DNA of 64,000 nt from a bacterium SCSIO 12741 (GTDB taxonomy: Bacteria; Bacteroidota; Bacteroidia; Flavobacteriales_G; Salibacteraceae). This document shows positions 11,695-25,184 of this stretch, one piece after another. The translations under genes were made by a program, and so were the position numbers. Within the stretch, counting starts at the first letter, position 1. Each line of letters begins with the position of its first letter. The stretch covers positions 620,001 to 684,000 of the forward strand of contig CP073749.1 in assembly GCA_024398055.1 (NCBI GenBank). Reading direction: 5' to 3'. The notes under the pieces were generated by a model, which had not been told where the DNA came from, ran no database searches, and saw only the letters and a list, made by a program, of their open reading frames with translations.

Positions 11695-11849
11695 GATTAT
11701 TTAGCCGAAGGTAGTCTAAACTATTTCCAAATTTTTTAGTGAGACCAGGATTCAGGGTATATCCATTTTGAATTTGGTCCATCTGCTTTTGAATTCGGTA
11801 GCAAAATTTCCATTTGAAAACCAGAGTTTTACGACATAAAAAAATCAAA

Positions 11850-12413
11850 ATGAAAAAATCTCTTTTTATCTTATCGACCATTTGCTTGACTTTTAGCATT
11901 ATCACGTTCTCCTGTAAAAAGGAAAATCAATTAACTCAAAATCAACATGAACAGGAATCTACTCATGAATCCAATGATCAAGAGAAGTCGCTACGGACCT
12001 CGACTATTGGAAACAGCACGCTTGGTGGAGTTCGTTATGGAGATTTCGAGAAAGATACCTGTTGGAAGGAGACTTCAACCACATGTCTTACAATCGTGGG
12101 TAATAATCTTCCATTTGACTTTGAACCAGTCGGGTTCGGCTCGCCCATAACTGATCCTAATGGAAAAAGTTACATGAATATTTACTACCAACACATGCCG
12201 AACTTAACTCCAACAGGGTTTGTTTATGGCTCAGGAACCTATAATATGCCCCTGGATCCTGGAATTTGCACAGCCTTAGGAGTAACCAGTATTACACTAA
12301 AACCTGGTGATTATATTCATCATTCAAGTCCCATAACGGTAGGAGATGGCAATGGTGGAACCAATCATTTTGCTTTTGGCTATGCTCGGTTTGAAGTGAA
12401 TTTTGTTCCTTAA
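11850..12413 (+). CDS. Lipoprotein, tandem copy 1
   Basis: A 187-residue lipoprotein: signal peptide with lipobox IITFSC (cysteine at residue ~22), a Gln/Glu/Ser-rich linker (ENQLTQNQHEQESTHESN), then a compact, Gly- and aromatic-rich domain ending FGYARFEVNFVP. An upstream ATG at 11814 would add twelve basic residues before the signal peptide; the ATG at 11850 is preferred. A second copy follows at 12788-13351. The two proteins are nearly identical except for a block around residues 67-87 (here FEKDTCWKETSTTCLT), which contains two cysteines. No family is recognised. It is probably anchored in the outer membrane or exposed on the surface. Confidence 0.85.
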   Translation: MKKSLFILSTICLTFSIITFSCKKENQLTQNQHEQESTHESNDQEKSLRTSTIGNSTLGGVRYGDFEKDTCWKETSTTCLTIVGNNLPFDFEPVGFGSPITDPNGKSYMNIYYQHMPNLTPTGFVYGSGTYNMPLDPGICTALGVTSITLKPGDYIHHSSPITVGDGNGGTNHFAFGYARFEVNFVP

Positions 12414-12632: not shown

Positions 12633-12787
12633 GATTATTTAGCCGAAGGTAGTCTAAACTATTTCCAAATTATTAAGTGCAACCAGGATTAAGGGTATAT
12701 CCATTTTGAATTTGGTTCATCTGCTTTTGAATTCGGCGGCAAAATATCAATTTGAAAACCAGAGTTTTACAATATAAAAAAATCAAA

Positions 12788-13351
12788 ATGAAAAAATCTC
12801 TTTTTATCTTATCGACCATTTGCTTGACTTTTAGCATTATCACGTTCTCCTGTAAAAAGGAAAATCAATTAACTCAAAATCAACATGAACAAGAATCTAC
12901 TCATGAATCCAATGATCAAGAGAAGTCGCTACGGACCTCGACTATTGGAAACAGTACGCTTGGTGGAGTTCGTTATGGAGATTTCGAGATAGATTCCTGT
13001 TGGAAGGAGTCATCAACCATATGTTATTCAGTCAAAGACAATAATCTTCCATTTGACTTTGAACCAGTTGGGTTCGGCTCGCCAATAACTGATCCCAATG
13101 GAAAAAGTTACATGAATATCTACTACCAACACATGCCGAACTTGACTCCATCAGGGTTTGTATATGGATCAGGAACCTATAATATGCCCCTGGATCCTGG
13201 AATTTGCACAGCCTTAGGAGTAACCAGTATTACACTAAAACCTGGTGATTATATTCATCATTCAAGTCCCATAACGGTAGGAGATGGCAATGGTGGAACC
13301 AATCATTTTGCTTTTGGCTATGCTCGGTTTGAAGTGAATTTTGTTCCTTAA
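12788..13351 (+). CDS. Lipoprotein, tandem copy 2
   Basis: The second copy of the lipoprotein gene, also 187 residues, with the same lipobox (FSC) and linker. It differs from copy 1 by about nine substitutions packed into residues 67-87 (FEIDSCWKESSTICYS here against FEKDTCWKETSTTCLT) and only one conservative change elsewhere (Thr to Ser in NLTPSGF). Cysteine positions are kept. DNA outside the block is almost identical, so duplication is recent, yet this short block has diverged strongly. Function unknown; a surface-exposed, diversifying segment is the natural reading. Confidence 0.85.
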   Translation: MKKSLFILSTICLTFSIITFSCKKENQLTQNQHEQESTHESNDQEKSLRTSTIGNSTLGGVRYGDFEIDSCWKESSTICYSVKDNNLPFDFEPVGFGSPITDPNGKSYMNIYYQHMPNLTPSGFVYGSGTYNMPLDPGICTALGVTSITLKPGDYIHHSSPITVGDGNGGTNHFAFGYARFEVNFVP

Positions 13352-14004: not shown

Positions 14005-14034
14005 TTGCATCATTCCAGAATTAGGTCGTCTTAG
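14005..14034 (+). promoter_or_regulatory. Predicted SigZ-type promoter P1 (FAD oxidoreductase-MFS)
   Basis: TTGCATCA (14005-14012), 14 bases, CGTCTTAG (14027-14034), ending 17 bases before the ATG at 14052. The same two blocks with the same spacing recur at 16629-16658 and 17440-17469. The layout suits ECF sigma -35 and -10 elements. Confidence 0.75.
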
Positions 14035-14051
14035 CGATCAAAATAGAAGAA

Positions 14052-15404
14052 ATGCAAAATTCAAATTTACCCGTTGCCATTATTGGTGGGGGTCCGGTCG
14101 GATTGGCAGCTGCAGCCCACCTGACTAAAAAAGACATACCATTCCTATTGTTCGAAGCAGGCGATTCGGTAGGTCGCAATTTTTTGTCCTGGGGACACGT
14201 CCGTGTTTTTTCTCCGTGGCGCTACAACCTGGATAAGGTGGCTCGTGAGCTTTTGCTACAAACGGACTGGCTGGAACCTGATCCCGAAAGCCTACCCACC
14301 GGAAAAGAACTAGTAGATGAGTATTTCCATCCCTTTTCTCAGCTTCCATCCATCAAACCTCATATCAAGTTAAATGCAAAGGTTTTGTCCATTGGAAGAA
14401 AGGGCTTTGACAAAATGAAAACCTGGGGAAGAAATGAAAAACCCTTCTCCATCCAGGTGGAGGAAAATGGCTTAGTCAACTATTACGAAGCCAGTGCCGT
14501 GATCGATTCTTCCGGAACCTGGAATCAACCCAATCCTATTGGATCGGGAGGTGTGATGGCACAGGGAGAACAGGAACTGGCTAAGCACATTTATTACGGG
14601 ATTCCAGATGTTAAGCACCAGGAATTGGAGCGCTACAAAAACAAACATGTAGTGGTGGTAGGAGGCGGTCATTCAGCCATAAATGCCCTGCTCGATTTGG
14701 CCGATGTACAAAACCTCTATCCGGAAACAAAAATCTCCTGGATCCTTCGTAAACCAGACATCTCTCAAGTGTATGGCGGACAAGAGGCCGACGAGCTTCA
14801 AGCCCGTGGTACCCTCGGTATTCGGATTGAGAATTTGGTCAATAGCGGACGCCTTCATATTTATACCCCCTACCACATCCTCAGGCTCTCCGAACAGGAA
14901 ACAGGCATTGAGATTCAGGGCGAATTAAAAGGAGAATTGGTAAAAATCGGAGAAGTGGACGAAATCATCAGTAACACTGGAGCGAGACCCAATTTGGACA
15001 TGATTCGGGAAATCAGAACGGATCTCGATTCCTCTTTAGAATCGGTATCTGATCTCGCCGAATTGATCGATCCAAATATTCACAGCTGTGGCACCGTTCG
15101 TCCCCATGGTGAAGCCGAATTGAGGCATCCGGAAGAAGATTTCTACATCGTAGGATCCAAAAGCTATGGACGGGCTCCTACCTTTCTGATGGCCACCGGC
15201 TATGAACAGGTTCGATCGATTGTTGCCTATCTGTCCGGAGATAAAGAAGGGGCTAAACGGGTGGAACTTGATCTTCCTCAAACCGGAGTTTGTAGTTCCT
15301 CTCTCAACCTGAAAAGCGGCTCGAGTTGTTGTGCTCCCGAACCTGTTGAAGTGGAGTCCATGGAGCGGTCAGCCCAAGGTACGGTGAGTGGATGCTGCGG
15401 ATAA
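14052..15404 (+). CDS. FAD-dependent oxidoreductase with C-terminal Cys-pair tail
   Basis: A 450-residue flavoprotein with two Rossmann motifs: IIGGGPVG (residues 10-17) for FAD and VVVVGGGHSAINA near 200 for NAD(P)H. ISNTGARPN and the late FYIVGSKSYGRAPTFLMATGYEQV segment match two-dinucleotide-domain oxidoreductases and flavin monooxygenases. It ends in an unusual tail with a cysteine at 414, CC at 426-427 and GCCG at 447-450, likely a shuttle or metal-binding arm like those of mercuric reductase and related enzymes. The MFS gene starts 9 bases after it, so the two form an operon driven by P1. Reduction or oxidation of a metal, metalloid or thiol compound followed by export is a fair guess; no substrate is proven. 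Confidence 0.88.
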   Translation: MQNSNLPVAIIGGGPVGLAAAAHLTKKDIPFLLFEAGDSVGRNFLSWGHVRVFSPWRYNLDKVARELLLQTDWLEPDPESLPTGKELVDEYFHPFSQLPSIKPHIKLNAKVLSIGRKGFDKMKTWGRNEKPFSIQVEENGLVNYYEASAVIDSSGTWNQPNPIGSGGVMAQGEQELAKHIYYGIPDVKHQELERYKNKHVVVVGGGHSAINALLDLADVQNLYPETKISWILRKPDISQVYGGQEADELQARGTLGIRIENLVNSGRLHIYTPYHILRLSEQETGIEIQGELKGELVKIGEVDEIISNTGARPNLDMIREIRTDLDSSLESVSDLAELIDPNIHSCGTVRPHGEAELRHPEEDFYIVGSKSYGRAPTFLMATGYEQVRSIVAYLSGDKEGAKRVELDLPQTGVCSSSLNLKSGSSCCAPEPVEVESMERSAQGTVSGCCG

Positions 15405-15413
15405 CCGAGCAAC

Positions 15414-16622
15414 ATGCAAGGTCTTTCCAAGGTATTTTTCAGTAGATTCTCTAAAAGCCTCCCATTTAGGGGGGCTTTAATTTCCAGCAGCGTCACAGCC
15501 TTTGCCGGATTGGGTGACGCGCTTTTGTATCCCATTCTGCCTATTTACGGAAAAGAAATGGGCTTTTCCTTTTTCGCTATTGGCCTATTGCTTTCCATTA
15601 ATCGGTTTGTGCGAATCGTGGCTAATTCCCAAGTGGCTATAATCATGGCCAGGGTGGGTGCGAGAAAGGTCCTTATTTTTTGCTCTGTGTTGGCTGTGAT
15701 GACCACCCTGGTGTACGGGCTTCAGGTAGGGTTAATCCTATTCGTATTGGCCCGGTTGGTTTGGGGCCTGTGTTATTCCGGGCTGCAAATTTCCACGCTT
15801 CATTATGCCGCTCAGGAAACACAACGGAAGGGCTTAACCTTTGCCTTGGCGCAGAGTATTAAAACCAGCGGAGCCCTGGCCGTCTTTTGGTTTGGTCCGC
15901 CATTGGTCAATCAACTGGGAGTTGAACCGGGAATTTGGGTCATTGCGTTGTTTAGTTCAATAGGAATCGTTTTGAGCTTTTTCTTACCTATGCTTCCGCT
16001 ACAAAATCAGGATACTACGATCAAAACCAAAAGAACCTTTTACCCCAGTGCAATTAACCTGCTGGTATTTTCACTCTCTTTTATCATCGATGGAGTTATG
16101 GTGGTCTCACTGGCCCAGATTCTTGGAACAGGATTTAACTCCTCGGGCGAACTCCTGGTTGCCGTAGCTTTTTATCTGCTCTTAAAGAAACTGTTTGCCG
16201 TGGTAGTATCCCTACTCAGCGGGTTTATAGCGCTAAAAATGGATCCGGTCAAATTATACGGAGCGGCTATCCTCATCTGTGTTTTGGCCTTGTTTCTAAT
16301 GGCTTTTAACCAACCTAAATTGGGAATTGTCCTCGCTTTTTTGTTCAACTCCATCATCGTTACCTTCTCCCCTCTTGTGGCACTCGAATTGGACCGCAAA
16401 CGCATGAATTCCCTTCAGGTCATTTCCAACATAAGCACCTGGTGGGATCTCGGAGCAGCCATGGGAGCTCTTTTGGGAATATATCTGGTGGAAATAAGCA
16501 ACCCTCAAGGGCTGTTTGGCCTGGCGGCATTGGTAATTCTCTGCCTTTCTACATGGCTTTTAAAATCTTTTCAATTCGTGAGATCCATTCCCTCCCATTG
16601 GCTGTGGAAGAAAAAATTTTGA
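15414..16622 (+). CDS. MFS transporter
   Basis: A 402-residue major facilitator with about 12 membrane segments. The MFS A-motif region reads GFSFFAIGLLLSINRFVRI … GARKVLIF between helices 2 and 3. It lies 9 bases after the flavoprotein gene, in the operon under P1. It probably exports the product or substrate of that enzyme, by analogy with ArsJ/ArsK-type arsenic or other resistance pairs, though no signature of those families is clear. A promoter of the same type (P2) starts only seven bases after its stop codon. Confidence 0.87.
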   Translation: MQGLSKVFFSRFSKSLPFRGALISSSVTAFAGLGDALLYPILPIYGKEMGFSFFAIGLLLSINRFVRIVANSQVAIIMARVGARKVLIFCSVLAVMTTLVYGLQVGLILFVLARLVWGLCYSGLQISTLHYAAQETQRKGLTFALAQSIKTSGALAVFWFGPPLVNQLGVEPGIWVIALFSSIGIVLSFFLPMLPLQNQDTTIKTKRTFYPSAINLLVFSLSFIIDGVMVVSLAQILGTGFNSSGELLVAVAFYLLLKKLFAVVVSLLSGFIALKMDPVKLYGAAILICVLALFLMAFNQPKLGIVLAFLFNSIIVTFSPLVALELDRKRMNSLQVISNISTWWDLGAAMGALLGIYLVEISNPQGLFGLAALVILCLSTWLLKSFQFVRSIPSHWLWKKKF

Positions 16623-16628
16623 CCCTTT

Positions 16629-16658
16629 CTGCATCATTTTCGAAGGCCTTCGTCTTAG
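16629..16658 (+). promoter_or_regulatory. Predicted SigZ-type promoter P2 (25-residue Cys peptide)
   Basis: CTGCATCA (16629-16636), 14 bases, CGTCTTAG (16651-16658), 29 bases before the ATG at 16688. It shares CATCATT and CGTCTTAGC with P1. Its position right after the MFS stop lets the tiny gene be transcribed on its own. Confidence 0.75.
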
Positions 16659-16687
16659 CTATTGAAAACGATTAAATACCATTCTTT

Positions 16688-16765
16688 ATGAGAGTAATTA
16701 GAATAAAAGCTACAGGAAAAAATTGTTGTGGAACCGGATGCTGTAACGGCGGCGGTTGTTGTTAA
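16688..16765 (+). CDS. 25-residue cysteine-pair peptide
   Basis: A very small gene encoding a basic N-terminal half (MRVIRIKATGKN) and a C-terminal half made almost only of Cys and Gly, with three CC pairs (CCGTGCCNGGGCC). It has its own predicted promoter (P2) upstream and a good terminator 21 bases downstream, so it is a complete transcription unit, which argues that it is a real gene and not chance. Possible roles are a metallothionein-like chelator, a metallochaperone or redox partner for the CC-tailed flavoprotein, or a modified-peptide precursor. The plain chelator or sensor idea fits best because the neighbours share CC motifs. No homologue is recognised. Confidence 0.65.
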   Translation: MRVIRIKATGKNCCGTGCCNGGGCC

Positions 16766-16786
16766 GCAATAATAAGTACGGCATGA

Positions 16787-16811
16787 AGCTCCTCAAATTG
16801 AGGGGCTTTTT
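16787..16811 (+). terminator. Intrinsic terminator after the Cys peptide
   Basis: AGCTCCTCA (16787-16795) and TGAGGGGCT (16799-16807) form a 9-bp stem with one wobble and a 3-base loop, followed by TTTT. It closes the tiny-peptide unit before the sigma-factor gene. Confidence 0.85.
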
Positions 16812-16857
16812 GTGCTGGAATGAAGTCCTAAACTCTCAAGTAGATTAAATAAGAGCT

Positions 16858-16865
16858 TACCTTTG
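16858..16865 (+). promoter_or_regulatory. Possible housekeeping -7 box before the sigma gene
   Basis: TACCTTTG matches the Bacteroidota TAnnTTTG consensus. It ends two bases before the ATG at 16868, so if used the message would be leaderless or would start at the ATG at 16874. No clear -33 TTG was found. The cluster motif of P1-P3 is absent here. Confidence 0.35.
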
Positions 16866-16867
16866 AT

Positions 16868-17428
16868 ATGGATATGGAACATCAGATAGAACAACTCTAC
16901 AACCCGCTGTTTCTGTTTATCCGCAAACGGATTAATAATCTGGAAGATGCTCAGGATTTGACCCAGGAGGTTTTTCTCAAGCTGGCCAATTCTGATTTGA
17001 AAAAAATCCAGAACGTGAAAAGCTGGTTGTATTCGGTGGCCCAAAATGCCATTACGGATTTCTACCGCAAAAAAAAGGTACTTACCGAAGAGGTAGAAGA
17101 CGTAACGGATGACCAAGAAAAACCCGAAAGCGAATCCATCGTTGAGCTGGGTAAATGCGTGGCCTCCTACATCGACCTATTGCCGAAAGAGTACCGGGAA
17201 ATTCTAAGATTATCTGAATTGGAAGGCTTGTCACAAAAGGACATCGCCACTCAGTTGGATATGAACTACGCCACGGTGAGATCTAAAATTCAACGAGGCC
17301 GAAAAAAGCTCAAGGATGTATTTACGGCCTGCTGCACCATCAAGCAAGGCGGAAAAGGGAGCATCATGAGTCATACCCAAAATCCCGATTGGGAAGAAAA
17401 AAGAAATTGTCTTGAAGATTCCTGTTAA
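16868..17428 (+). CDS. SigZ-like ECF RNA polymerase sigma factor with cysteine tail
   Basis: A 186-residue ECF sigma factor. Region 2 spans about residues 8-70 (EDAQDLTQEVFLKLA, SWLYSVAQNAITDFYRKKK) and region 4 about 103-152 (LPKEYREILRLSELEGLSQ, then MNYATVRSKIQRGRKKLKD). It resembles SigZ. After region 4 is a 35-residue extension with CC at 155-156 and cysteines at 181 and 186, plus C97 between the domains. No anti-sigma gene is adjacent, so the tail may itself sense metal or thiol state. Three copies of one ECF-like promoter motif flank the gene and not its own upstream region. An alternative start is the ATG at 16874. Confidence 0.88.
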   Translation: MDMEHQIEQLYNPLFLFIRKRINNLEDAQDLTQEVFLKLANSDLKKIQNVKSWLYSVAQNAITDFYRKKKVLTEEVEDVTDDQEKPESESIVELGKCVASYIDLLPKEYREILRLSELEGLSQKDIATQLDMNYATVRSKIQRGRKKLKDVFTACCTIKQGGKGSIMSHTQNPDWEEKRNCLEDSC

Positions 17429-17439
17429 CTTCGTTTCTA

Positions 17440-17469
17440 TTGCATCAATTATCTCTATTTACGTCTAAG
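17440..17469 (+). promoter_or_regulatory. Predicted SigZ-type promoter P3 (secreted Cys protein)
   Basis: TTGCATCA (17440-17447), 14 bases, CGTCTAAG (17462-17469), 23 bases before the ATG at 17493. Both blocks and the exact spacing match P1 and P2. Confidence 0.75.
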
Positions 17470-17492: not shown

Positions 17493-17963
17493 ATGAAAAC
17501 AATCAAAAAACTAGTTATCGCCACCTCCTTGATGGGCATGGGTCTACTCTTTACCAACGGAGCACAAGCTCAAAAAGCCTGCTGTGCCTCAAAATCAAGT
17601 AAATCAGAGAAAGCCGAATCCACTTCGGGTTGTAATCCATCCAACTGTAGAGGAGCTCAAACCAAATTTGGTGAGGCCAAGGTTATTACCAGCTTGCGCG
17701 ACGACTTAATTGCACTTAAGGCAGAAATGGAAAAATCAACCGATCCCAAGTTTGATGAGCGCTCATACACCATCCACGACATTGTTGGAGAATCTGATGA
17801 TGAAAGCCTAAAGATTATTGCCCGTGAAGTACAGGTGGTTGAAAAAGAGCTGAGCAGCAAAATGAAGGTAAAGGTCGACGCCTTTGAAATGCCTGAAGAA
17901 AAAGCCCAACAGGTGCAATACCTCAAAGGCCGAATCGAAGTATTAAAAAAGAACTTCTCGTAA
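17493..17963 (+). CDS. Exported protein with N-terminal Cys motifs
   Basis: A 156-residue protein with a signal peptide to about residue 26 (…TNGAQA). The mature protein opens with ACC (cysteines 30-31), a Lys/Ser-rich linker, then GCNPSNC (47-52). The rest is charged and helical (LIALKAEMEKS, EKELSSKMKVKVDAFEMPEEK), perhaps a coiled coil. It is a likely periplasmic metal- or thiol-reactive protein and the third unit under the shared promoter motif. A sensor, chelator or chaperone role is inferred; no family is recognised. Confidence 0.82.
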   Translation: MKTIKKLVIATSLMGMGLLFTNGAQAQKACCASKSSKSEKAESTSGCNPSNCRGAQTKFGEAKVITSLRDDLIALKAEMEKSTDPKFDERSYTIHDIVGESDDESLKIIAREVQVVEKELSSKMKVKVDAFEMPEEKAQQVQYLKGRIEVLKKNFS

Positions 17964-18155
17964 GAGATTCAGTACATCATAAGTTTTCTTAGGGGAGTAA
18001 ATTGACGCTTTGAGCGCTCCTACTCTCCCCTGAGAATCTCCTTTTAGCCTAAATACCTGAAGGAAATGCCGAGCGATGAATTCCCCATTTCCGCTCAGGA
18101 GTATTTCTGTGTGGGTCTTCCCAAAAGATCGAATTACCCTTAGATTCTTAATGTG

Positions 18156-19175
18156 ATGATGAAAAGAAGCATTGTAAGCTTACTTATTCTGCTCAGTTTT
18201 ACCGTATTGGCCATAACGGGAATCCTCGAGTATTTTAGGCCTCATACCCATTTTATTCAAAGCCTACACACTTGGTTTGGCTTCGTGTTTCTGCTGGCAG
18301 CCGTTTTTCACCTGACCAATAATCTGCGTCCCATCAAATCTTACCTCAAGAAGAAATCGGTGTACGGAATAGGAATGATTCTGGCGTTGGTCGTTGCGGC
18401 CATTTACTGGACTCTCCCACCTTTCGAAACAGTTATGGAATGGGGCACCCAAATTCGTGCTCAGGGTAAACAGGAAGTGGATCCGGAACAAAGAGATATC
18501 CTACGAATGAATACTTCCCACGAAACACAGCTTCACCTTGATCTACTTCGCGGAGAGCATTACTGGCATCCTCAAATGGTTATTTGGACGGAAGATACGA
18601 ACGGCCAATTCCTGGAGACCTTATTCGTAAGCAAGGCCACGGCCAAAGGACTTTTCTTCGGTGGTCGCAACAAGGACAACTTTAAAACCTTTGATGAAGA
18701 ATTGGATAGTGAAGGAGATTACCGAAGGGTGGATGCCTTACCTGTTTGGTCGCACAAGCGTGGGGTTCAATACGCCGATGGAATGTATGTTCCTCCTTCT
18801 AATCAACCCCTACCCGACGGGATCACAGGAGCCACTTTACAAGGAAACTTCAACCTCCATACCTCCTCCCAGAACACGAGTCCGTTCGTGGTTCGTTTAG
18901 AGATCAATGTGGCCTTTGATGACAACGAATATTATTCCGAATATGATTTTCCGGATGACGAAGTATACCACAGCGGCACCGGACAATTGGGGCAACCTTC
19001 TTTGGTTTTTGAAGCCCAGGTCAATCCGGAGATTAAATCCTATCAAATGATGCAGCTTATTGGCCATGGTCATCAATCCGGCCAATCGGGTGAAATCAAC
19101 CCTGACCTCTCCACGCTTACCACCGCACTCGAAATTGTTGAGCGTATTGTGATTGGGGTTCAGCCCAAAAAGTAA
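18156..19175 (+). CDS. DUF4405 (flavinylation-associated cytochrome-like) membrane protein
   Basis: A 339-residue protein. The N-terminal third holds about three membrane helices with a DUF4405 domain: HTWFGFVFLLAAVFHLTNNLRP carries histidines placed to bind heme b, as in flavinylation-associated cytochromes (quoted motif spans residues ~38-59). After the third helix (~residue 88) comes a ~250-residue soluble part facing the periplasm, with ISHET-like and HWHPQMVIW-like segments resembling DUF2271-type domains. It could pass electrons across the inner membrane. A GTG at 18153 and ATGs at 18156 and 18159 are all possible starts; I take 18156. The upstream spacer has no copy of the Cys-cluster promoter. 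Confidence 0.78.
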   Translation: MMKRSIVSLLILLSFTVLAITGILEYFRPHTHFIQSLHTWFGFVFLLAAVFHLTNNLRPIKSYLKKKSVYGIGMILALVVAAIYWTLPPFETVMEWGTQIRAQGKQEVDPEQRDILRMNTSHETQLHLDLLRGEHYWHPQMVIWTEDTNGQFLETLFVSKATAKGLFFGGRNKDNFKTFDEELDSEGDYRRVDALPVWSHKRGVQYADGMYVPPSNQPLPDGITGATLQGNFNLHTSSQNTSPFVVRLEINVAFDDNEYYSEYDFPDDEVYHSGTGQLGQPSLVFEAQVNPEIKSYQMMQLIGHGHQSGQSGEINPDLSTLTTALEIVERIVIGVQPKK

Positions 19176-19918: not shown

Positions 19919-22900
19919 CTATGAACTGGATTTTCGGTATTCCTTAAAATAAGCCCAAGCCGCCAAAAGCACCATAATCACCACCAGTACATAAACGAAT
20001 TTGGGAATGGGCATAGGATCCCCGGCGGCGTAGCTGTGTAGTCCAGATAGGTAGTAGTTTACTCCAAACGAGGTCATAATAATGGACCAAAAGGCAAACA
20101 TACTGGCAGTATTGAGCACATACTTGCTATTCAACCGGGGTACGAATCGGAGGTGAAGAACAATGGCATAAACGATAATACTAATCAAGGCCCAGGTTTC
20201 TTTGGGATCCCAAGCCCAGTAGCGCCCCCAGGATTCATTGGCCCAAACTCCACCTAAAAACGTTCCTACGGCCAATACAAACAAGCCAATGGTCATCGAA
20301 ATCTCATTGATGTAGCTCAGTTCCCGAATCCTCAGGTTGATGGCCTTTTTTGTTTTTTCGGTTCGTATGATCATCAGCACCAGAACCATCATTCCCATCA
20401 CGGCCGAAAGCGCTAAAGGAGCGTAACTACTGACAATGGTGGCTACGTGAATTTTCAACCAGTACGATTTTAGTACAGGCATCAAATTGGTAATCTCTGG
20501 ATTCAGCCAATCGAGGTAGCTAACGAATAACAAAGCTCCTGAAAACAAGGTGGCCAAGGGCAATGAAAAATCGGATTTACGAAAGGTGAGCAAGCCACAA
20601 AGCATCAACACCCAGGTTACAAAAATGAGCATTTCGTAACCGTTGCTCCAGGGAGCATGTTCAGCAATGTACCAGCGTAATATCAAATTGCCGGTAAACA
20701 CGATAAAGCTGATCAAGGTGATTCCAATCAAACCGACCCATGTGGCATTGACCATACGTGACTGAGTAAAGATGCGGGCAATGGCTAAAACCAATAAGAT
20801 GAAACCCAAGGTAAAGTAGACCTGGAAAAGCCAAAAATTGACATTGAGTTCATTGTACCACAGTTCAGCAGCTACCTGCCTTTTGCTGGGTAGTATGTCC
20901 TTTCCCAATACTTCCTGGTAGGTTTTGATGTAGGTAAGCTTTTCGGTGGCATCTATCCATTTTCGTTCATGGATATCGCGGAAATAAAGCGGTAAAATGG
21001 TTCTTACAAATTTGGCATCCTCTTCTGGAAATTCGGTAAGCTCTTGACTGTAGCTAAACCAGGTATTGTTCTCGTCGTTTTGATTGGGGAAGATTTTCAA
21101 GTAATTGCCTACAAATACATTGTATAGAATATTGAAGCGCTCATCTACTTTGATCACTTCCTTGTCCAATTCACTTCGTTCTGCCGGTTTTTTCTGATTC
21201 GCACGTTCAACTAAGTCAGTCAGAAGATATTCACCCTCTTCGTCTATAAAGCCGGTTAAGGCAACATGGCCCGATTCATTGATGGGTATACCTTCCAGAA
21301 AAGCAGCTCCTTTTTCACGATCCACCTTAATGATGGAAATGTCTCGCCATAAATCAGGATATACGTGCATGGCCAGAAACACTTGATTGGCGTTGAGCTT
21401 AACCTTTTCGCCTTGGTGCTCAAATTTGAATTGTGTTTTACGGGAAATCTTCCTCAAAAATTCGGAGGCCAGGGTATTTACGGGTTTTATCCGCCCATCT
21501 AAATCCTGCACCATCAGGCGGCCAAACAGATCGGCATGTTGCTGATCGATTTGTTGCTGTAGAATCAGATTCTGTTCTTGCTCGAGGTCTACTTCGGTGG
21601 CTGGCAAGGAGCCTGCTCCCAGGAATAGAAAGAGTAGCACCAATCCAAGCCGTTGTTCGGTGGTTTGTTTCAACTTGGCGTTGAGCCATTGAAAACGAGA
21701 GTTTCGTCCAAACAGGGTGAAGAACATTCCGAGTCCCATAAGAAAATAGCCAGCATAGGTCAAATAGGTTCCGGGTCTATCCTGGTTGACAGAAAGTACA
21801 GTCCCTAACTCATCTGAATCGTAACTGGCCTGGTAAAAACGATAGCCTCGGTAGTCGAGCACATTATTCATAAAAATGCGGTAGGGCTCCCGTTTTTCGC
21901 CGTCCAAAATACTTACCTCACTGGCATAGGACGAAGGGCTCGTTGATCCTGGATAGCGCTCCAGCTGAAAGTCTCTCAACTCGAGGGCAAAAGGTAACAA
22001 GATGGCCTCAGAACCATAAGAAAGACGAAGGGTCAATCCATTAATCTTAAGCTCATGTTGACTCGGTAAAAATCCTTTGCGATACATGAGGGTTATCGTC
22101 TCGGTACTACCTCCGGAGCTTACATTAAGGGCTAAGGCATCGTCCTTGGTCTCGTCATTGTCTTTGGGTTTCATAGACGCACTAACCAATTCCAGGGTGG
22201 CCTGGGTATGGTAGGCAAGGGGAACAAATGTGAGGTCACCGTTGCGGTAAAGGGTTCGTAACCTCAGCGGCTGTAGGGAGTCCTGAGCAATTTTTCCTGC
22301 CGACTGATCGGCCATAACGAAGAAATCGAGCGATTTAGGCGTTTGAATGTACAAGGAATCTCCTCTTTCGGTGAGATTGATATTCCCCTTTTCATCGGAT
22401 TCGAATCCGATGGATAAGTCTCCTTGCTTGAAGCCTAACTTTTCTGTCTTTCCTTTTTCGAGGTAAACGGTTTCTCTACCATTACCACGAGCAACCACAA
22501 GTTCTATCAGGGAAGTTCCATTTTCGGCATCTTCTTTCACTCGGGGAACGGCGTCGGCTACAAACTCGGCGAATGAAACCTGAATATCCTTCCCATCCCA
22601 ATCTGTAGAAAGGGTGAAATGATTATTGCCCAGGGGTGAAAATTCCAAGGGCTTTTTAACGGTCTTGCTCTGAGTTCCATCCGATATAAGTACGGTAAGG
22701 TAATTGTCGTTGGAAATGATCACATGTGAGGATTGCCCTTCCCGGATGCGCATGACTCCGCCTGTGGAATAATACCGGGTAACGGCTGCTCCAACCAAGA
22801 TTAAAATGAAGGATAAGTGAAAGAGTAAAATGGCCCATTTCTCTTTGCGCCACAGGCGATACCTCTGAATGTTGAAGATGAAGGAAACACCCAGCCCAAG

Positions 22901-23065
22901 CATAACCCATTCAAACCACCAACTGTCGTAGATCAATTTCCAGGCTGTGGCTGTGCCAAAGTCATTTTCCACAAAGGTGGCCGTCGCCATGGCAAGGGCA
23001 AACACCAACAATAGCAAGAGCGCTAATGAGGGAGAACTGAGTAAACGTATGAGTCTATTCACCAA
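19919..23065 (-). CDS. ccsBA: CcsBA fusion, cytochrome c biogenesis (system II)
   Basis: A 1048-residue protein joining a ResB/CcsB-like N-terminal half (membrane segments at ~10-30, 50-65, 77-95 and near 430, with a large periplasmic loop between) to a CcsA-like C-terminal half. The WWD heme-handling motif is WGRYWAWDPKETWA, starting at residue ~946, and His residues in nearby helices are conserved. CcsBA moves heme to the periplasm and attaches it to CxxCH motifs. It lies 22 bases after nrfA in the same direction, so it probably matures NrfA and NrfH in particular, including the CxxCK site of NrfA. A second soluble stretch at ~490-720 separates the two halves, as is common in Bacteroidota. 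Confidence 0.93.
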   Translation of the reverse strand: MVNRLIRLLSSPSLALLLLLVFALAMATATFVENDFGTATAWKLIYDSWWFEWVMLGLGVSFIFNIQRYRLWRKEKWAILLFHLSFILILVGAAVTRYYSTGGVMRIREGQSSHVIISNDNYLTVLISDGTQSKTVKKPLEFSPLGNNHFTLSTDWDGKDIQVSFAEFVADAVPRVKEDAENGTSLIELVVARGNGRETVYLEKGKTEKLGFKQGDLSIGFESDEKGNINLTERGDSLYIQTPKSLDFFVMADQSAGKIAQDSLQPLRLRTLYRNGDLTFVPLAYHTQATLELVSASMKPKDNDETKDDALALNVSSGGSTETITLMYRKGFLPSQHELKINGLTLRLSYGSEAILLPFALELRDFQLERYPGSTSPSSYASEVSILDGEKREPYRIFMNNVLDYRGYRFYQASYDSDELGTVLSVNQDRPGTYLTYAGYFLMGLGMFFTLFGRNSRFQWLNAKLKQTTEQRLGLVLLFLFLGAGSLPATEVDLEQEQNLILQQQIDQQHADLFGRLMVQDLDGRIKPVNTLASEFLRKISRKTQFKFEHQGEKVKLNANQVFLAMHVYPDLWRDISIIKVDREKGAAFLEGIPINESGHVALTGFIDEEGEYLLTDLVERANQKKPAERSELDKEVIKVDERFNILYNVFVGNYLKIFPNQNDENNTWFSYSQELTEFPEEDAKFVRTILPLYFRDIHERKWIDATEKLTYIKTYQEVLGKDILPSKRQVAAELWYNELNVNFWLFQVYFTLGFILLVLAIARIFTQSRMVNATWVGLIGITLISFIVFTGNLILRWYIAEHAPWSNGYEMLIFVTWVLMLCGLLTFRKSDFSLPLATLFSGALLFVSYLDWLNPEITNLMPVLKSYWLKIHVATIVSSYAPLALSAVMGMMVLVLMIIRTEKTKKAINLRIRELSYINEISMTIGLFVLAVGTFLGGVWANESWGRYWAWDPKETWALISIIVYAIVLHLRFVPRLNSKYVLNTASMFAFWSIIMTSFGVNYYLSGLHSYAAGDPMPIPKFVYVLVVIMVLLAAWAYFKEYRKSSS

Positions 23066-23087
23066 TTGAAATCAAGAGCGGATCAGG

Positions 23088-24578
23088 CTACAAAGAGGCT
23101 GCCTTGGTATCCATTTTAGCCTCTCTTTCTGAAGCTTCTTTAAGCCACTGAGGCAAGAGGTTTTGCTTGAACTCTTTTTTCTCCTCGCGGAGTTTTTCCA
23201 TATCCAGTCCAATGTACTCCTGGGCTTTTTCTTTGGTGGAAATATCGGGCATTACCACTTCTTGATTGTGTCCTAATTCGGCCAACAAACGAGCCAATTT
23301 CACCCGGGCTTCCTGAGCAATAATCATTCCGCCAGCGATAACCCTACCGGTTTCTACAGGAGAGTGGAAAGACGCACCGTGAGAAGCTGCGGCATAGTCC
23401 CAACGCCATTGAGCGTGGCGAATATCTAATAGGATGGCTGCCATTTGTTCCTCGGTAGCTCCCAATTCCCAAGCCTTACCGGCTTCGATGTGGGCTTTAA
23501 CCAACAGATCTTCCAACTTTAAGCGATTTTCATTGGCTTTGCGTTGACGCTCATAAACGTTCTCCAATAAATTATCCTGATCCACTCGGTGACACACCTG
23601 GCACGCATTGGCCACATTGGCCAAAGGAGACTGAATGTGGTGATCGGTAAATTTTTGTCCTCCCTCACTTTTATAAGGCATGTGGCAGTCGGCACAGGAA
23701 ACTCCCCGGTCTGCATGAATACCTGTTTTGTAGGTTTCATAACCTGGGTGCTGGGCCTTGAGCATAGGTGCTCTACTGATTTTGTGGGTCCAGTCAGCAA
23801 ACTCGATTTCGTCGTAATAGGCCTCCATATCTTCCACACTCATTCCATTTTTCCAGGGGAACACGAGGTAAGGTGTCCCCTCTTTTCCAGGAATCTTTTT
23901 GTTGAAGTAGTACTCCACATGGCACTGGGCACATACCAAAGACCGCATTTCCTGATGCGTCGCCTGATTGATGTCTTCACCCATGGCTTCAAAGGCTTCG
24001 ATAAGAGCGGGCCGGGTAATTCTCAATTTCATGTTATCCGGATCGTGGCAATCCGCGCAACCAATGGCATTCACCACTTCCGAACCCTTATCGGCCCACT
24101 TGCCTTGGTAGAATTCATCGATACCATGTTCATTCATCAAGCGAGGTACATCCGGACTTTTACACGCCCAGCAAGTAGAAGGCATAGGTCCATCTCCCTT
24201 TCCTTTAGGACCTCCGGTTCGAAGGGAATTACGCAAATCATCGATGGCATAAGAGTGTCCCCTACCCTGGTTGTAGTCTTTGGAAAAACCGTATCCGGCC
24301 CAAAGAATGACCAATCGTGGATCTTCTTCCAACATATCACGGGTGGCAGATCCCCCCTGGTAGGTGCTAAACGAAGTATCCCGAGTCTGCTTGTAAGACT
24401 GGTATTCCTTGGGGTAGTTTTCACCCCAAACCGCATTGCGTGGTTCGTTTTGCGAAATTTCCACCTTTGGCACATACTCAAAGCGAGCTTCAGCCTTGCG
24501 GTTGATGATACTTGATGCAAGGATTCCCAAAAGGAATACCCCAATACCTGTCACGATAAACAATACCCAGTTTCTCAT
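23088..24578 (-). CDS. nrfA: Ammonia-forming cytochrome c nitrite reductase NrfA
   Basis: A 496-residue pentaheme enzyme with an N-terminal signal anchor (~5-25). The heme sites are CWACK (136-140, the lysine-ligated active-site heme), CADCH (174-178), CAQCH (216-220), CADCH (295-299) and CQVCH (326-330). Arg in MRSLVCAQ and the tyrosines in VEYYF match the active site. It reduces nitrite to ammonium with six electrons in the periplasm, taking electrons from NrfH. The gene lies 9 bases after nrfH and 22 before ccsBA. All five heme motifs are intact, so it should be functional. Confidence 0.97.
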   Translation of the reverse strand: MRNWVLFIVTGIGVFLLGILASSIINRKAEARFEYVPKVEISQNEPRNAVWGENYPKEYQSYKQTRDTSFSTYQGGSATRDMLEEDPRLVILWAGYGFSKDYNQGRGHSYAIDDLRNSLRTGGPKGKGDGPMPSTCWACKSPDVPRLMNEHGIDEFYQGKWADKGSEVVNAIGCADCHDPDNMKLRITRPALIEAFEAMGEDINQATHQEMRSLVCAQCHVEYYFNKKIPGKEGTPYLVFPWKNGMSVEDMEAYYDEIEFADWTHKISRAPMLKAQHPGYETYKTGIHADRGVSCADCHMPYKSEGGQKFTDHHIQSPLANVANACQVCHRVDQDNLLENVYERQRKANENRLKLEDLLVKAHIEAGKAWELGATEEQMAAILLDIRHAQWRWDYAAASHGASFHSPVETGRVIAGGMIIAQEARVKLARLLAELGHNQEVVMPDISTKEKAQEYIGLDMEKLREEKKEFKQNLLPQWLKEASEREAKMDTKAASL

Positions 24579-24587
24579 CGATTCTAA

Positions 24588-25184
24588 TTATTTATTCAAT
24601 TCGTTTTGCAACCATTCCGGAATAACGGCTTCCACCTTATCTGTTGGGCGGGGAGCTAAGTCATACTTTACGGTTGACATTCCTTGTATTTTACCATGTG
24701 GAATTTCACGGTGGCAACTCCAGCATTTTCTTTCCGTTCTATTGGACGTGTGATCTTTTAGGTAATCAGCGTATTTGGTCTCGGTTACCTGCTGAACGTG
24801 GCAGCGAATGCAATTGTCCTGAACCACATTTTCAGAAGCCTCTCGCATAAACATAACGTCTGGCTCTGCTCGCAGGGTAAAAATGGAAGCGTGGTACAAG
24901 CCGTCTTTCGCCTTAAAGTAATAGGCATTGAAAAAATTGTCTTGTGGAACGTGGCATCCATTACAGCTCACCCACTCCCGGTGTGAACTGTGCATCCAAC
25001 CATTAAAGGCCGGCGTCATCACATGGCAGTTAACACAAGCCTGGGGATCATCGGATAAATAGGAGGTCACTTTAGCTTCATGAGCCATAAACAATCCCAA
25101 GCCTATAGCGGCAGATAGGATAAAAACAGCGACCGGGCGCCATCTTGATTTTTTGTTCGGTAGAAGCGATTCCTTAAAATTCAT
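24588..25184 (-). CDS. nrfH: NrfH, tetraheme quinol dehydrogenase of nitrite reductase
   Basis: A 198-residue NapC/NirT-family protein with one membrane anchor (~18-33) and four heme motifs: CVNCH (50-54), CNGCH (74-78), CIRCH (125-129) and CWSCH (154-158). NrfH takes electrons from menaquinol and passes them to NrfA. It is the first gene of nrfHA-ccsBA, read leftward. A partial palindrome at 25210-25225, 26 bases upstream of its ATG, may be a regulator site. Length and spacing are normal. Confidence 0.96.
   Translation of the reverse strand: MNFKESLLPNKKSRWRPVAVFILSAAIGLGLFMAHEAKVTSYLSDDPQACVNCHVMTPAFNGWMHSSHREWVSCNGCHVPQDNFFNAYYFKAKDGLYHASIFTLRAEPDVMFMREASENVVQDNCIRCHVQQVTETKYADYLKDHTSNRTERKCWSCHREIPHGKIQGMSTVKYDLAPRPTDKVEAVIPEWLQNELNK

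Follow-up and report, generated by a model that had tools for sequence, protein, structure and literature searches.

The stretch of DNA analysed here, hereafter the window, covers 64,000 nt of bacterium SCSIO 12741 (CP073749.1, 620,001-684,000), whose 5.1 Mb genome consists of one contig. It contains a gene cassette in which a bipartite element, YTGCATCA-N14-CGTCTWAG, occurs three times in the neighbourhood of a gene for a SigZ-like extracytoplasmic function (ECF) sigma factor. Our comparisons of sequences and gene neighbourhoods point to an autoregulated, thiol-sensing sigma factor of the SigZ type that would run an arsenical-detoxification regulon of three units, a reading to which we assign a probability of about 0.72. 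SigZ would drive a flavin adenine dinucleotide (FAD)-dependent oxidoreductase together with a major facilitator superfamily (MFS) pump, a 25-aa Cys peptide, and an exported Cys protein together with a DUF4405 membrane protein.

A rare bipartite element in the window and its genome

The initial annotation had described three copies of the element, and our search recovered them at exactly the coordinates and distances to the start codons (14052, 16688 and 17493) that it had given (Table 1). It had also noticed no further copy in the window; indeed, a search tolerating up to three mismatches matched these three sites alone, each with 0 mismatches. The corresponding shuffle test (16/100 at 3 mismatches) carries no information, as it disregards that all three sites are perfect. 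Across the whole genome, the pattern matches perfectly at three sites, at no site with one mismatch and at four sites with two, fewer than the 15 of the reversed control pattern. A very strict pattern matched the window site alone across 395 genomes, showing its rarity, and is too strict to reveal the family. When scored with a weight matrix trained on 25 sites from other genomes, the window sites ranked first to third in their genome (35.6, 24.5 and 19.4 bits), followed after a wide gap by the next best site (9.6 bits), and the best scores on 5 Mb of Markov-1 random sequence were 19.7 and then 16.5 bits. Because the training sites of this matrix were found via the window consensus (at most 2 mismatches), its ranking is only partly independent; more independent tests, described below, come from the spacing profile, the sampling by sigma similarity and the genomes with two separate loci. 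Matches to sigma-70 promoters in the region were not above those in shuffled sequences.

Conservation of the element and cassette in other Bacteroidota

Relatives of the FAD enzyme were collected through protein similarity alone. The six closest (69-73% identical), from Tenacibaculum, Roseivirga, a Chitinophagales, two Cyclobacteriaceae and Aquimarina, are encoded in variants of the cassette, with a Cys-tailed FAD enzyme, a CC-rich peptide of 50-61 aa, an MFS transporter, a SigZ-like sigma factor, an exported Cys protein and a DUF4405 protein. Among these loci, the element TGCATCATTT..N..CGTCTTA occurs before the FAD gene, the Cys peptide and the exported protein, with a spacing of 14 as a rule. 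The motif also stands before a PatB-type C-S lyase gene followed by a true ArsO in L064 (501.7 bits for NF040505, with a cut-off of 425), and before an MFS gene in L072. Across 32 sigZ-type loci (479 kb, the window left out), the spacing between TGCRTCW and CGTCT was N14 31 times and N15 11 times, every other spacing from 6 to 25 occurring at most once.

In L067 (10183-13181), the motif precedes a pair of genes for an iron-sulfur and a molybdopterin oxidoreductase. The pair has weak similarity to ArrB/PhsA and may belong to the regulon as a reductase with a respiratory or detoxifying role.

The SigZ-like sigma factor as the probable reader of the element

The sigma factor of the window belongs to the ECF group, with Sigma70_r2 and Sigma70_r4_2 above their gathering scores and a length of 186 aa, inside the range of about 160-200 aa expected for factors made of regions 2 and 4 alone. 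It matches the SigZ profiles over nearly their full length (positions 5-168 of 170 for TIGR02959 and 3-176 of 181 for NF007215). Its tail, which is conserved in the cassette group, contains a CC pair, a QGGKGSI loop and at least one more cysteine. We found no published SigZ promoter, regulon or signal in the open-access literature.

Several observations connect this type of sigma factor with the element. When ECF genes were collected by sigma similarity alone, our script counted TGC[AG]TC[ACT]-N14/15-CGTC within the 3.5-kb locus for 7 of the 16 Cys-tailed SigZ-like genes and for none of the 13 other ECF genes, the reversed control motif giving 0 at the same loci; the seven include L030, whose Cys-tailed sigma is of a more distant type and whose motif match is poor. 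The strict motif had 16 matches in 14 whole genomes, most of them adjoining a sigZ, against one match of the control. Roseivirga thermotolerans (G360) has two strict sites genome-wide, 442 kb apart, one before FAD-MFS genes and the other ahead of a PIG-L gene with sigZ behind it. Moreover, the form of the -35 block tracks the sigma tree: TGCATCA accompanies factors with the region-4 helix NYxT(V/L)RS, and TGCGTCT those whose helix is of the SYSGAKS type, mixed cases being few. The element also has the CGTC of ECF promoters in its -10 block (CGTCTWA) and their fixed -35/-10 spacing (TGCRTCW-N14/N15-CGTCT). Given its conservation, its N14/N15 spacing, its association with Cys-tailed sigZ genes and the covariation of its -35 block with SigZ clade and region-4 helix, the element is very probably a -35/-10 promoter read by the SigZ-type sigma factor of the cluster. 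The original proposal that this factor drives all three units is thus strongly supported, short of proof. As for the "one stress response" that it invoked, the stress, unspecified there, can be refined to a most probably arsenical one.

The presence of three copies within 3.5 kb on one strand might stem from duplication, in which case the element could be a small dispersed repeat, or else a chance resemblance. However, the N14 spacers of the three copies are mutually dissimilar, arguing against a recent duplication or repeat, and their flanks are also unrelated; many genomes have the same sites at orthologous genes, and the window genome has none elsewhere. The probability of such an origin is negligible, chance being already refuted by the comparison across genomes. 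The sites also lie near start codons, where operators can lie, and a DNA-binding regulator controlling the same genes might recognise them instead of a sigma factor. This is very improbable, given that CGTC is the typical core of an ECF -10 block, that the two blocks are strictly N14/N15 apart, that the motif tracks the presence of sigZ, the SigZ clade and the region-4 helix, and that the cassettes have no regulator gene in common besides sigZ.

In many cassettes, sigZ is the last gene of a FAD-MFS-sigZ operon with overlapping open reading frames, and in several genomes it is preceded by its own copy of the motif. These arrangements suggest that sigZ is normally a member of its own regulon, under positive autoregulation.

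Other SigZ-like genes differ in their surroundings. In six loci of Flavobacteriaceae (L076, L079, L080, L081, L096 and L107), a different SigZ-like gene lies directly 5' of the FAD homologue with no motif, and the FAD tails have few CC pairs. A separate clade (L041, L043 and L045) accompanies genes for SO_0444-like and MerTP-like transporters (by eye), also with no motif, and probably serves another metal and promoter. Therefore, SigZ-like factors are not all alike.

Arsenic context of the flavoenzyme and the regulon

The flavoenzyme matches Pyr_redox_3. Two more specific identities were rejected: its score for the ArsO profile NF040505 is 46.7 (cut-off 425), and that for the bacillithiol reductase YpdA is far under the cut-off. 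No sequence relative was found in the PDB at E 1e-6.

Homologues of the FAD gene co-occur with ArsR, ArsB, ACR3, ArsC, ArsN1 and ArsK genes. On an Ensifer adhaerens plasmid, a close homologue forms an ArsR-FAD-ArsK array beside arsenite oxidase genes; a Dietzia plasmid has ArsR-ACR3-ArsC-FAD-ArsC, and a Cytobacillus plasmid FAD-MFS-ArsN1a followed by ArsR-ArsB. Genes for ArsV often neighbour arsK under ArsR, an arrangement which the Ensifer locus fits, as a lead rather than a test. Among 82 FAD-homologue loci (E 1e-8, local queries), ArsR-like genes are present at 42 of the 60 without SigZ and at 1 of the 22 with SigZ, a contrast that is partly taxonomic because Bacilli dominate the loci without SigZ, and in which more divergent ArsR genes may be missed. 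The motif itself also leads to arsenic genes. In G013, it precedes, behind sigZ, an arsM whose product passes NF008823 (326.7 bits, cut-off 263), and in G081 it precedes a sigZ-arsM pair in which ArsM has a CC tail, with ArsR and an arsenate-reductase-like gene alongside (by eye). Paralogues of sigZ adjoin ArsC, ACR3 and ArsN1-like genes in Parachryseolinea and Dawidia (L071 and L073), the one in L071 having the motif upstream. From this gene company, the function of the regulon is probably arsenical detoxification.

A further FAD homologue occurs with ArsR on the small, mobilizable Staphylococcus plasmid SAP008A (L145) from poultry litter, an environment with past use of organoarsenical feed.

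Several points weigh against an arsenical regulon under a SigZ-type factor. The sigma factor scores below both SigZ cut-offs (151 bits vs 168.65 for TIGR02959 and 157.5 vs 212 for NF007215), and we therefore name it SigZ-like only. Its gene in the window, as originally reported, has no motif copy of its own directly in front; it lies 102 bases 3' of the Cys peptide, after a strong hairpin with a T-run, and its autoregulation here would depend on read-through past this hairpin. The two SigZ clades described above count on the same side, since the SO_0444/MerTP-linked one is devoid of the motif and the flavobacterial one is so even directly before FAD homologues (L076 and L079). Finally, the closest cassettes (L064-L069) lack both ars efflux genes and ArsR within 7 kb, ArsO in some excepted, and ACR3, arsM and true ArsO are all absent from the window genome.

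Because of these last two points, the SigZ regulon might respond to a different thiophilic stress (Hg, Cu, Sb, Cd or an electrophile), which would be both its inducer and its substrate, the FAD and MFS proteins having been re-purposed in Bacteroidota. Many soft metals are ligands of CC tails, the copy on one Staphylococcus plasmid has merR/merA next to it, SO_0444/MerTP-like transporters accompany another SigZ clade, and classic ars genes are missing from the nearest cassettes. Nevertheless, the same motif precedes arsM, sigZ-arsM and PatB-ArsO, sigZ paralogues are located beside ArsC-ACR3, and the FAD homologues outside Bacteroidota are found overwhelmingly in ars operons. We consider another thiophilic agent unlikely, and arsenicals remain the favoured target.

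Organisation of the cassette and its Cys-rich proteins

The genes named in the initial annotation were all borne out, namely the FAD enzyme with its -SGCCG end, the MFS gene, the 25-aa Cys peptide, the exported Cys protein and the SigZ-like ECF factor (Table 1). The MFS gene adjoins the FAD gene in most SigZ-type cassettes. The exported Cys protein has no known fold match, and its recognisable homologues were found inside these cassettes only.

Table 1. Features of the SigZ-type cassette, in window coordinates.
Feature	Position	Strand	Evidence and remarks
Predicted SigZ-type promoter, copy 1, TTGCATCA-N14-CGTCTTAG	14005..14034	+	17 bases 5' of the FAD gene; same site before the FAD homologue in L062-L069, L071, L072, L075
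FAD/NAD(P) oxidoreductase, putatively ArsV-like, 450 aa, C-terminal Cys tail ending -SGCCG	14052..15404	+	Pyr_redox_3; 56-73% identical homologues; ars context
MFS transporter, putative ArsW/ArsK-like role	15414..16622	+	MFS_1; begins 9 bases after the FAD gene
Predicted SigZ-type promoter, copy 2, CTGCATCA-N14-CGTCTTAG	16629..16658	+	29 bases 5' of the Cys peptide; same site before the Cys peptide in L064-L067, L070, L073
25-aa Cys peptide, MRVIRIKATGKNCCGTGCCNGGGCC	16688..16765	+	Alignable with 50-68-aa CC-rich peptides of the same cassettes
Terminator-like hairpin and T-run, between Cys peptide and sigZ	16779..16817	+	-23.5 kcal/mol, z -3.5
SigZ-like ECF sigma factor, 186 aa, Cys tail (CC, QGGKGSI loop, further Cys)	16868..17428	+	TIGR02959, NF007215, tail alignment, tree
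Predicted SigZ-type promoter, copy 3, TTGCATCA-N14-CGTCTAAG	17440..17469	+	23 bases 5' of the exported Cys protein; same site before homologues in L064, L066, L069
Exported Cys protein: signal-peptide-like start, disordered Cys-rich N-part, three-helix bundle	17493..17963	+	Homologues; AlphaFold2 model, mean pLDDT 70
DUF4405/DUF2271-like membrane protein, probable second gene of the copy-3 unit	18153..19175	+	Pfam; after the exported Cys protein in L064, L065, L069, L072

Cys-rich products also occur around other SigZ genes. Those without the FAD cassette adjoin unannotated Cys-rich micropeptides of 26-43 aa in L039 (7319-7432), L040 (7443-7523), L042 (8194-8325), L053 (8922-9020) and L054 (8015-8143), and the motif precedes the micropeptides of L039, L040 and L053. 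The pairing of SigZ with micropeptides thus appears to extend beyond the FAD cassette. In G181, extra motif copies on another contig stand before two tandem Cys-rich proteins, one of which (70 aa) resembles the Cys tail of the FAD homologues (CCxLDEEKKAxGExGCGC); therefore, the Cys tail exists both fused and free. In L048 (1033-2001, minus strand), an ArsM-like methyltransferase in a sigZ-arsM pair has a C-terminal CC-rich tail.

On one side of the cassette, the window has two tandem, nearly identical genes for 199-aa secreted proteins (11814-12413 and 12752-13351), whose flanks are duplicated too, indicating a recent local duplication. Beside the cassette, at 19919-25184 on the minus strand, there are cytochrome c assembly-type and multihaem nitrite reductase-like genes (NrfA/NrfH-like by eye).

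Proposed mechanism and significance

The target of the regulon would most likely be trivalent arsenicals, namely arsenite or methylarsenite, and possibly antimonite. Trivalent arsenic bound by the thiols of the conserved, cytoplasmic Cys tail of SigZ may activate the sigma factor directly, with no anti-sigma factor involved. The Cys peptides and Cys tails could buffer the metalloid and pass it along. Caught on the thiols of these peptides and of the tail of the flavoenzyme, the metalloid would be oxidised by this enzyme, and the MFS pump would export the oxidised product, as in ArsV/ArsW. The exported Cys protein and the DUF4405 protein may act in the envelope. More broadly, the SigZ-type factors of Bacteroidota might be one-component arsenical sensors that replace ArsR as master switch and govern a thiol relay, in which Cys micropeptides and Cys-tailed enzymes (the flavoenzyme and, in one relative, ArsM) pass on the metalloid; we advance this idea tentatively, at odds slightly short of even.

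For the SigZ-type ECF factors of Bacteroidota, this analysis supplies a predicted promoter sequence together with a set of target genes and a signal that can be tested. It also suggests a switch in the control of arsenical resistance, from the repressor ArsR, which usually governs such genes elsewhere, to an activating sigma factor, SigZ. In addition, it points to Cys micropeptides that annotation easily overlooks, and the rarity of the motif makes it a usable marker for SigZ regulons in uncharacterised genomes.

Comparison with known systems

The SigZ family (TIGR02959, NF007215) is the best family match of the window sigma factor, whose Cys tail is common to its SigZ-like relatives. The flavoenzyme shares its flavoprotein superfamily with ArsO (NF040505), and true ArsO genes are found in sister cassettes; the enzyme of the window differs by its Cys tail. 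Its counterpart may be ArsV; according to reviews, ArsV oxidises methylarsenite, and ArsW extrudes methylarsenate (PMC10080717). The ArsV/ArsW and ArsV-ArsK operons for methylarsenite resistance likewise pair a FAD-dependent oxidoreductase gene with an MFS transporter gene, a likeness in gene arrangement. In contrast to these ArsR-controlled operons, the window cassette has a SigZ-type sigma factor instead of ArsR, together with the additional Cys peptides, exported Cys protein and DUF4405 protein.

CorE and CorE2 of Myxococcus xanthus (ECF44/ECF238) are ECF sigma factors whose activity depends on metal and whose C-terminal domain is Cys-rich, CorE being activated by copper. CorE and the window sigma factor are alike in their conserved C-terminal cysteines, in having no adjoining anti-sigma gene and probably in their metal- or metalloid-handling targets. 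However, the CXC in the sigma2-sigma4 linker that defines CorE is missing from the window sigma factor, whose linker (KKKVLTEEVEDVTDDQEKPESESIVELGKCVASY) has a single Cys; its SigZ-like sequence, its ars-type rather than copper-type targets and its promoter differ as well. Membership of the CorE group was therefore rejected, and CorE serves as an analogy. The same mechanism has been suggested for ECF287 and ECF288 in view of their Cys-rich tails (PMC8999054). Our results thus suggest a known type of regulon, that of a Cys-tailed ECF sigma factor, in which, as the new trait, an ArsV/ArsW-like detoxification is placed under sigma control.

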